From Candidatus Binatia bacterium (GTDB lineage: Bacteria > Desulfobacterota > Binatia > UBA9968 > JAJDTQ01): 46,329 bases of DNA. The stretch lies in assembly GCA_022824205.1 (NCBI GenBank), contig JAJEAI010000096.1, forward strand, positions 1-46,329. The letters are read 5' to 3'. The notes below the pieces were generated by a model. That model made no database searches and was not told where the DNA came from. It was given only the letters and a program-made list of their open reading frames with translations. The position numbers and the translations under genes were made by a program. The first letter of the stretch is position 1; every line of letters starts with the position of its first letter. This document shows, piece by piece, positions 42,268-46,329 of the stretch.

Positions 42268-44511
<2,244 letters not shown>

Positions 44512-44537: not shown

Positions 44538-44583
44538 TTAGTCAATGACCATTGACTAAATTTAGTCAATGGTCATTGACTAA
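44538..44583. promoter_or_regulatory. Perfect 46-bp AT-rich palindrome, four TTAGTCAATG half-sites
   Basis: Two 22-bp units, TTAGTCAATG-AC-CATTGACTAA and its exact reverse complement, are separated by AT, so the whole 46 bp is a perfect palindrome and each unit is itself palindromic except for the central two bases. It is far richer in A/T than its surroundings. It ends 29 bp before the AAA/DUF4143 start codon, the place expected for an autoregulatory operator. Lack of a GC stem and T-run argues against a clpA terminator. Confidence 0.7.
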
Positions 44584-44612
44584 ATTTTACAAGTGGGTAT
44601 CATTCAAGTGCC

Positions 44613-45995
44613 GTGGCCAGTGTCGATCCCCGCTTCGTCTCGCATAACCTTCACCTGGAAGACCCGGAACTGTTCCGCACCGCAGACCCGCAACTCCGCG
44701 AGTTGCGGCGACTTCCGGTCGAGTATCGCTACCCTATCCTGACGCATCTTCCGGTGGATGAGCCGGGGATCTATTCCATCACGGGCGGCCGCAGAATCGG
44801 CAAGTCCACGGTGCTGAAGCAGTGGATGTACGACTTGCTGGATCGAGGGGTGGCGCCGCGGCGTATTCTGTACCTGACCGGAGAGCTCATCGATGACCAT
44901 CACGCGTTGGTGGCTCTACTGCACCGGACCGCGCCCGAGCACTCTCCCGGACAGCCCGCTTACCTGCTCGTTGACGAAGTGACCTACGTTCGCGGCTGGG
45001 ACCGGGGTGTCAAGTTCCTCGCCGATGCGGGCCTCCTGGAAGACGTCATACTGATACTCACCGGCTCCGACTCGGTCATCATTCACGAAGCCCGCACGTT
45101 GCTTCCAGGTCGCCGGGGTCGTGCGTCGCGCGTCGACTTTCATCTCTACCCACTATCGTTTTCACAGTACCTGGAGTTGTCGGGAATCCCGGGTCGATCC
45201 GCGGGACCGGATTCCCGGGAATACGCCGCCACCCTGACCGACGCCTTCCAGCGTTACCTGATGCACGGCGGATACCTCACGGCCATCAACGACATGGCGG
45301 CGAACGGGCGCATCGAGCCGGCGACGTTCGCGGTGTATAGCGACTGGATTCGCGGCGACATGGTGAAACGTGGCAAACAGGAACACTTCCTCAACGAGAT
45401 TCTTGGCGGCGTGGTCCGGCGTTATGGCAGCCAGGTGAGCTGGAACAGCCTGGCCCGCGATCTCTCCATCGATCATCCGGCGACCGTGGCCGACTACATC
45501 GCGCTTCTTTCCCGGATGGACGTTCTCATGGTGCAGCACGCGTTGCGGGAAGACCGGCTCGCGCCGGCGCCGAAGAAGGCGCGCAAGGTGGCGTTTCCCG
45601 ATCCCTTCGTCTTCCACGCGGTGCGGAGTTGGCTCGATCCCGTGGAAGACCCTTTCGCCGGACACGTCGTGCCGGCTCTGGCGGACCCGGAGTGGACGGG
45701 CAGGTTGGCTGAAGCATGCGCCGCGGCGCACCACCACCGTCTGCACCCTACCTATTACATCAAGGGCGATGGCGAGGTGGATATCGCATACGTCACGGAG
45801 GGCGGGTTTCAGCCAATCGAGGTAAAGTGGACGGGGCAGATTCGCTCCGCGGATCTGAAACAGGCCCGGAAGTACCCCAACAGCATCATCTGTTCGAGGG
45901 TGGCGGCGGTGGACCGCGTGCACGGCCTGCGGAATGAGTTGCTGCCCGCGCACCTGCAGCGCCTGGGCGAGTCGCCCCACTACGTGACATGGTAA
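44613..45995 (+). CDS. AAA ATPase with DUF4143 / PD-(D/E)xK-like C-terminus
   Basis: A 460-residue AAA_14/DUF4143 protein. The ATPase part (about 35-190) has Walker A ITGGRRIGKSTVL (56-68), Walker B YLLVDEVTYV and a sensor-like LILTGSDS. The DUF4143 part follows (about 240-400) with a winged-helix-like SWNSLARDLSIDHPATVADYIALLSRMDVL, and the end shows GEVDIAYV...PIEVKWTG, a PD-(D/E)xK-like nuclease pattern. Proteins of this family are widespread, often isolated and horizontally transferred, with no settled function; a mobile or defence role is suspected. The start is GTG at 44613; no ribosome site is obvious. A 46-bp palindrome precedes it. Confidence 0.8.
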   Translation: MASVDPRFVSHNLHLEDPELFRTADPQLRELRRLPVEYRYPILTHLPVDEPGIYSITGGRRIGKSTVLKQWMYDLLDRGVAPRRILYLTGELIDDHHALVALLHRTAPEHSPGQPAYLLVDEVTYVRGWDRGVKFLADAGLLEDVILILTGSDSVIIHEARTLLPGRRGRASRVDFHLYPLSFSQYLELSGIPGRSAGPDSREYAATLTDAFQRYLMHGGYLTAINDMAANGRIEPATFAVYSDWIRGDMVKRGKQEHFLNEILGGVVRRYGSQVSWNSLARDLSIDHPATVADYIALLSRMDVLMVQHALREDRLAPAPKKARKVAFPDPFVFHAVRSWLDPVEDPFAGHVVPALADPEWTGRLAEACAAAHHHRLHPTYYIKGDGEVDIAYVTEGGFQPIEVKWTGQIRSADLKQARKYPNSIICSRVAAVDRVHGLRNELLPAHLQRLGESPHYVTW

Positions 45996-46329
45996 TGGGT
46001 CTGGACCGGCAGCATGAACCTGGCTGCTGCGGCACCCGTTGGAATAGTCCAGCGAGCCCTTTGTGGCGAAAGCTCCAGATCATCCGGCTCGTGGCGGATG
46101 TCCTGGAGGCCGACTATGTGAGGTGGTGACCGAGGTAGATGAATGCTGGCTAGCTCTACCGAGTCATGACAACAAAGACATGACAACAGGCTAGCCCGGA
46201 TATTTCACCAAGGCGGGTTTGCGGCGTAGGGAAGAGGGTATCAGCGGGGCAGGAGGCGCCATAGGGGTTCAATTCTGGTCCGCAGAGGGTTTTTGTAGGG
46301 CCGGTGATGACCCTGGTGAGGCGAACCGA
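45996..46329. other. Non-coding right end, possible edge of a mobile element
   Basis: No convincing gene was found in these 334 bp. Two direct copies of CATGACAACA lie 14 bp apart (46165-46174 and 46179-46188), and GGCTAGC occurs at 46148 and 46189. The block GGCTAGCCCGGATATTTCACC from 46189 resembles an IS terminus, possibly IS1380-like, read from memory of such ends rather than compared. A short plus-strand frame ending LVADVLEADYVRW at about 46128 might be the tail of a broken gene. Confidence 0.25.

Follow-up and report, generated by a model that had tools for sequence, protein, structure and literature searches.

A perfect palindrome in front of an AAA_14 ATPase gene of a Candidatus Binatia bacterium as a putative autorepression operator

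In the genome of a Candidatus Binatia bacterium (GCA_022824205.1), a perfect palindrome lies between clpA and a gene for an AAA_14 ATPase, which raises the question of what this DNA does and which protein reads it. The window, i.e., the whole stretch of DNA that was analyzed, comprises 46,329 nucleotides of contig JAJEAI010000096.1. An initial annotation, made from the sequence alone, suggested that the palindrome may be a binding or cleavage site of the encoded protein, an operator, or a component of a mobile unit transferred together with the gene.

Layout of the palindrome, its predicted promoter and the encoded protein

The features of the locus are:

42268–44511, + strand: clpA, located upstream; a variable slot with the putative operator and the gene is bounded on the left by the clpA 3′ end
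44538–44583: perfect 46-bp palindrome, putative operator array, with the symmetry centre between 44560 and 44561
44538–44545: half-site 1, TTAGTCAA (8 of 9 consensus bases)
44552–44560: half-site 2, TTGACTAAA
44561–44569: half-site 3, TTTAGTCAA; half-sites 2 and 3 together form the 18-bp core
44576–44584: half-site 4, TTGACTAAA; includes the predicted −35 hexamer and is conserved in same-genus genomes with the gene
44576–44581: predicted −35 hexamer TTGACT, within half-site 4
44598–44603, + strand: predicted −10 hexamer TATCAT, after a 16-bp spacer
44613–45995, + strand: gene for an AAA_14 ATPase with a winged helix and a PD-(D/E)xK-like region (PADLOC PDC-S01), 460 aa, GTG start
45381–45593, + strand: winged helix-turn-helix region, residues 257–327, from the AlphaFold model and the clade alignment
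45477–45515, + strand: predicted recognition helix, residues 289–301
45687–45827, + strand: PD-(D/E)xK-like region, residues 359–405
46015–46083, − strand: higB-start-like stretch, a remnant of a convergent higBA module

The perfect 46-bp palindrome described in the initial annotation is confirmed: TTAGTCAATGACCATTGACTAAATTTAGTCAATGGTCATTGACTAA (44538–44583) consists of two 23-nt arms that are 100% complementary with zero gap. The four half-sites that it reported were located at the positions listed above; they are 8–9 nt long, follow the consensus TTTAGTCAA / TTGACTAAA and recur with a period of 24 bp. Its description of the palindrome as AT-rich also holds (∼30% G+C). The site is placed between the clpA stop (44511) and the GTG start at 44613, 30 bp from the gene. 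A chance origin was ruled out by shuffles, by a genome-wide scan and by sites of mixed spelling as an internal control. The 22-bp unit with at most three mismatches was absent from all dinucleotide shuffles of the window (mean 0.00), and in the 4.82-Mb genome it occurs a single time, at the window site. Exact core sites number only two in the genome, both adjoining AAA_14 genes, and the reversed control gave 0. Those mixed-spelling sites that do adjoin genes are members of a real sub-branch.

A sigma-70-like promoter, TTGACT-16-TATCAT, was predicted by consensus match only (10 of 12 positions), and at the sequence level the palindromic site overlaps this predicted promoter of the gene. The −10 region, GGGTATCAT, is conserved in the same-genus loci L310 and L312 and altered in L313, which has no gene.

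The window protein matched Pfam AAA_14 over the cut-off (2.5e-20) and has the P-loop GGRRIGKS; its genome contains 20 AAA_14 matches over the cut-off. Of the family name AAA/DUF4143 given initially, the AAA_14 part stood, whereas Pfam DUF4143 gave zero matches for the window protein itself; the name is nevertheless right in substance, because five of the six proteins in its alignment match DUF4143. In PADLOC, the protein matched the PDC-S01 profile PDLC04787 with an E-value of 2.3e-32, at partial coverage and with the curated cut-off not shown, and the protein of L014 from the same genome matched PDC-S01 with 6.3e-155. An AlphaFold model based on 54 sequences (mean pLDDT 91) replaced an earlier model based on six sequences (pLDDT 56). 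It consists of an AAA+ module, a winged helix, for most of which the pLDDT is >90, and a PD-(D/E)xK-like end; the model thereby shows a predicted DNA-binding domain, the winged helix, in the gene product. The PD-(D/E)xK-like end had been noted before and is supported as a prediction: E367, E388, D390 and E403 are invariant and K405 is nearly invariant in 54 proteins, and the signature has matching strands and a helix in the model of the window protein.

Association of the site with AAA_14 genes and with protein clades

The 18-bp core, TTGASTAAATTTASTCAA, was scanned against 84,980 species genomes, and at least 119 stretches matched. At least 121 core sites were listed, 59 of which are placed immediately 5′ of an AAA_14/DUF4143 gene and oriented towards it, defined as an AAA_14 frame in the correct orientation at −20 to +300 bp from the core; L136 and L154 are just beyond this distance cut, yet also belong. 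The chance rate of a core next to an AAA_14 gene is ∼0.4% by our own estimate, which is based on five AAA_14 genes away from any site in ∼0.8 Mb of loci. Hosts among the matches listed are Bacteroidota, Desulfobacterota, Nitrospirota, Planctomycetota, Verrucomicrobiota, Gemmatimonadota, Acidobacteriota, Eggerthellaceae and Pseudomonadota. Among the rest of the listed sites, some are cut off by chunk edges, some lie beside remnants of deleted genes (L118, L132, L068, L067), and some gene-less GACT matches resemble terminators (e.g., L097, L128, L131) or chance matches. One other gene of the window's own genome (C98, L014) is preceded by a perfect palindrome of 38 bp, whose core, TTGAGTAAATTTACTCAA, is related. 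On another contig of this genome (L011, C164), TTCTCCTTNGCATAAGGAGAA occurs twice, at a distance of 33 bp, 5′ of a further AAA_14 gene.

In the protein tree, GACT sites are confined to the window's clade and GAGT sites to another clade, and between the two lie AAA_14 subfamilies of the same genome without such sites. In the window's clade, TTGACTAAA is found with 6-bp spacers between the half-site pairs, and in the second clade TTGAGTAAA is found with 4-bp spacers in a 400-aa GAGT branch and 0 bp in a 420–430-aa branch. Spelling and spacing of the half-sites go with the protein clade rather than with the host. The recognition helix reads SIDHPxTVxDY in the window's clade and GNTTTLAHY or GNTTTLARY in GAGT proteins. 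The protein of L301 (38% identity) has the helix GLISKETFMDY; its site keeps the AAATTT centre and the 24-bp period, with the half-site CTAGACAAA instead. The correlation of site and helix is not strict, because in L053 the helix is partly divergent (SISHHDTIREY) while TTGACTAAA is retained. Overall, the site is gene-specific and covaries with the DNA-binding helix, with the exceptions of L032 (see below), the helix of L053 and the AAA_16 sites. Beyond the searched core, mirroring between the arms exceeded that in arm-swapped controls out to ∼24 bp (z of 5.5 in the 400-aa and 4.8 in the 420-aa branch); farther out, it was not above that of arms swapped between loci. Consensus matches to promoters were also observed in these branches: in several loci of the 420-aa branch a −10-like hexamer lies 17 bp after the core TTGAST, with the ATG immediately behind it, and in the 400-aa branch TTGACA tends to sit 17–18 bp 5′ of the central TAAATT.

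For the converse test, from gene to site, protein searches in 247 genomes yielded 23 GAGT-clade genes, 21 of them with a readable 5′ end. A core of at least 13/18 was found in 18 of these 21 (one of the 18, L279, is the already known L014), a 12/18 core in one and none in two, and of 46 control zones not one reached a 13/18 core match. Apparent upstream matches at −900 to −600, which arose from negative slice indices close to contig edges, were left out of account. Protein searches for the window's clade gave L292, with two cores and an exact match, and L300, with two cores and a 17/18 match, which has the exact 22-bp unit in common with the window at 52% protein identity. The protein of L032 is 54–55% identical and has the same recognition-helix motif as the window protein, yet its site is degenerate (15/18); upstream of the L293 and L034 genes (27–28% identity), no such site was found.

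Palindromes were also counted in a family-wide sample of 96 DUF4143/AAA_14 genes from one phylum and the window's genome, which were chosen independently of the pattern. An inverted repeat score of at least 9 was reached in the 5′ zone of 42 of the 96 genes, compared with 35 of 235 intergenic starts of other genes, 1 of 99 intragenic zones, 5 of 98 zones at 3′ ends and 2.7% in shuffles. The Fisher p of 6e-8 for the comparison with the starts of other genes is optimistic, because the genes are partly same-genus orthologues, so that not all are independent, and because the starts were inferred. The palindromes differ from subfamily to subfamily, and a strong palindrome is missing from more than half of the DUF4143 genes tested. 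In the initial annotation, a complete lack of palindromes upstream of homologues was expected to speak against its proposal; such palindromes are present. Same-genus DUF4143 genes of other subfamilies (L240/L242, L261/L262, L243/L256) have different palindromes with mirrored changes, e.g., TGACAAGGGTAATTTATCC... vs. TGACAAGAGCAATTTATCC....

The best explanation, to which a probability of roughly 0.7 is assigned, is that the palindrome is a private operator, to which the gene product would bind through its own winged helix, resulting in autorepression. The symmetry and conservation of the site, its overlap with the predicted promoter and the covariation of its spelling and spacing with the protein clade are the sequence observations behind this reading. 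Of the roles considered initially, that of an operator or own binding site is favoured, since palindromes occur before homologues, match the clade in spelling and spacing and lie on the predicted promoter.

Alternatively, the operator could be read by another host regulator, the gene being one target among several. This would account for a near-palindrome that the same genome has in front of the gene for an unrelated AAA_16 ATPase, as well as for an exact core before an AAA_16 gene in L085. It is improbable, however, as the site follows the gene through many phyla with different regulators, spelling and spacing track the protein clade, and the genome's two exact core sites are both at AAA_14 genes. 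At the first of these AAA_16 loci (L305, C199:40140), the related site TTGACTAAATTTAGTCTT and then TAGACTAAATATAG lie just 5′ of the gene for a 401-aa AAA_16-type ATPase, and the exact core at L085:6422 precedes another gene of this AAA_16 family. PADLOC gave no match, and L323, another relative, is without the site. Because a related site precedes an AAA_16 ATPase, recognition may not be exclusive to the AAA_14 gene.

The variable slot 3′ of clpA and arrays without a gene

Loci 3′ of clpA were compared in seven same-genus and four same-order genomes. The window, L310 and L312 have both operator and gene (83% identity for the gene), and there the half-sites, TTGACTAAA and GGGTATCAT are kept. 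In L313, the gene is lost, the operator core is retained, the promoter has degenerated and a convergent higBA module lies next to it; L308 has higBA without the operator, and L309, L311 and L314 have other sequence in the slot. Across the genus, genomes with the gene show conservation of half-sites, −35 and −10, and loss of the gene goes along with a degraded promoter. The higB-like stretch at 46015–46083 in the window matches the same-genus higB start (L308, L313), and therefore the operator, the gene and higBA were probably all present in the ancestor. From the operator without a gene in L313 it follows that an operator can persist after its gene has gone, and some of the arrays without a gene are explained in this way. 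Two near-identical direct repeats of 13 nt (AGTCATGACAACA) are located 3′ of the gene at 46162–46188.

In several loci (L041, L062, L132, L118, L061), AAA_14 genes are internally deleted or mere remnants and the operator is intact, and arrays of the 22-bp layout without a detectable gene remnant within the locus were found at L039:5215, L114:5064, L087:5050, L140:4149 and L043:6900. Viral contigs (L326:5804, L332:12481, L330:1281, L331:200) contain GAGT-type arrays with a 22-bp period beside small unrelated genes, with no AAA_14 gene near these arrays; they are possibly decoys, remnants or a phage use of the host operator. A phage origin was rejected, as the 22-bp unit had no match in viral contigs and a single, weak protein relative was found there. 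Relatives on plasmids are distant.

Instead of being primarily an operator, the palindrome could be the recognition or cleavage site of the PD-(D/E)xK domain or an assembly site for an action on DNA. Such a role would fit the conserved catalytic-type residues, the Orc1/Cdc6 initiators bound to origin DNA among the top fold neighbours and the existence of gene-less arrays, some of them in viral contigs. It is considered unlikely, since the array lies on a predicted promoter that decays once the gene is lost, a self-cleavage site in the chromosome would be harmful, and several of the arrays without a gene are what is left after a gene deletion; cleavage of the palindrome by the protein finds no support here.

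The very stable RNA fold (z −5.9) and also the mirror covariation would fit an RNA hairpin (attenuator or terminator), but with the predicted promoter, transcription would start only after the palindrome, the 420-aa branch has its −10 beyond the palindrome and apparently leaderless starts, the window gave no terminator-like site, and the two-core layouts with a 24-bp period (L292, L301) are not hairpin-like, which makes this explanation highly improbable.

It is likewise highly improbable that the palindrome is one end of a mobile unit travelling with the gene, a role in which the initial annotation expected a matching sequence at the other end. Operator and gene do lie in the variable slot 3′ of clpA, a second array is found 3′ of the gene in four Cyclobacteriaceae loci, and several internally deleted genes have an intact operator. 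However, a second copy is missing from the window's 3′ flank, which extends over 331 bp to the contig end, the second array occurs in only four of the loci examined, all from a single family and probably sharing one position, and the same-genus L313 keeps the operator without the gene and shows no trace of a repeat-mediated excision. In these Cyclobacteriaceae loci (L070:6206, L046:4327, L112:386 and the 3′ flank of L129), the second array is ∼110–430 bp away from the stop codon and is followed by a convergent rlpA-like gene.

Proposed autorepression and comparison with known systems

If the palindrome is an operator for autorepression, the central TTGACTAAA/TTTAGTCAA would be bound by one dimer, and additional subunits would occupy the outer half-sites 24 bp away, cooperatively along the array. 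The cooperative binding of two dimers that was suggested initially fits such an array with 24-bp spacing. Because the array overlaps the predicted −35 box, the bound protein would block RNA polymerase and expression would be low. We infer that the gene's own protein is the binder, that its binding represses rather than activates, because the site overlaps the promoter, and that nucleotide state or infection would lift the autorepression; relief driven by infection is speculation. It is a doubtful, though conceivable, extension that the ATPase-nuclease is parked on its own promoter as an ATP-controlled, Orc1-like assembly that infection releases, so that it would be sensor, self-repressor and effector, with phage arrays as decoys or triggers. 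If true, control by a parked assembly would be a general principle of the fourth most common defence-candidate family.

The conserved clade-specific site makes PDC-S01 testable, as it provides the exact DNA for assays of binding, footprinting, structure and ATP-dependence, and the operator offers an in vivo reporter of what turns the gene on. Natural protein-operator pairs are available for specificity swaps (GACT with 6 bp, GAGT with 4 bp, GAGT with 0 bp, and CTAGACAAA with a 24-bp period). For annotation, a promoter-overlapping palindrome marks many DUF4143 genes and their remnants.

PDC-S01 is a single-gene candidate defence system, unvalidated, in which an ATPase is fused to a PD-(D/E)xK domain (PMC12988326), and it is reported to be the fourth most common defence in prokaryotes, with roughly 39,000 genes counted (PMC12988326). 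Its profiles match the window protein, and palindromic operators are the element added here; no operator or regulation of PDC-S01 is described in that study, whose text does not contain the words palindrome, operator, promoter or repressor (PMC12988326). In the open-licence literature, no published description of a DUF4143 palindrome or operator was found, and work in subscription journals is possible. A DUF4143 gene of Thermus was up 6.6-fold when a plasmid and Argonaute were both present (PMC4406477).

The nearest folds of the model are the archaeal AAA+ ATPases Sso1545 and PABY2304, followed by Orc1/Cdc6 and STAND NTPases (e.g., CED-4), in all of which an AAA+ module is followed by a winged helix; Orc1/Cdc6 binds origin DNA. 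They differ from the window protein in that identity is 9–18% and that the site of the window protein is at its own promoter. VIA-align gave a Z of up to 16.4 (to 2qen), with many AAA+ families scoring close by, and the fold matches span residues 6–360, so that the C-terminal PD-(D/E)xK part is barely covered. The signal-transduction ATPase IniR of mycobacteria also combines a Sso1545-like AAA+ domain with a DNA-binding domain and binds a promoter (PMC5760070), but it activates another operon and has a LuxR-like DNA-binding domain, and a nuclease domain is not described for it (PMC5760070). In the MazE and RelB toxin-antitoxin systems, a product of the locus represses its own promoter via an operator (PMC9477884, PMC2812701), whereas the window encodes one 460-aa protein with ATPase, DNA-binding and nuclease-like parts and no separate antitoxin gene. 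Autorepression through palindromes is a familiar principle; what appears to be new, as judged from these comparisons, is a putative autorepression operator for an ATPase-nuclease defence candidate that consists of a single protein, together with the breadth of its occurrence and its clade-specific site grammar.
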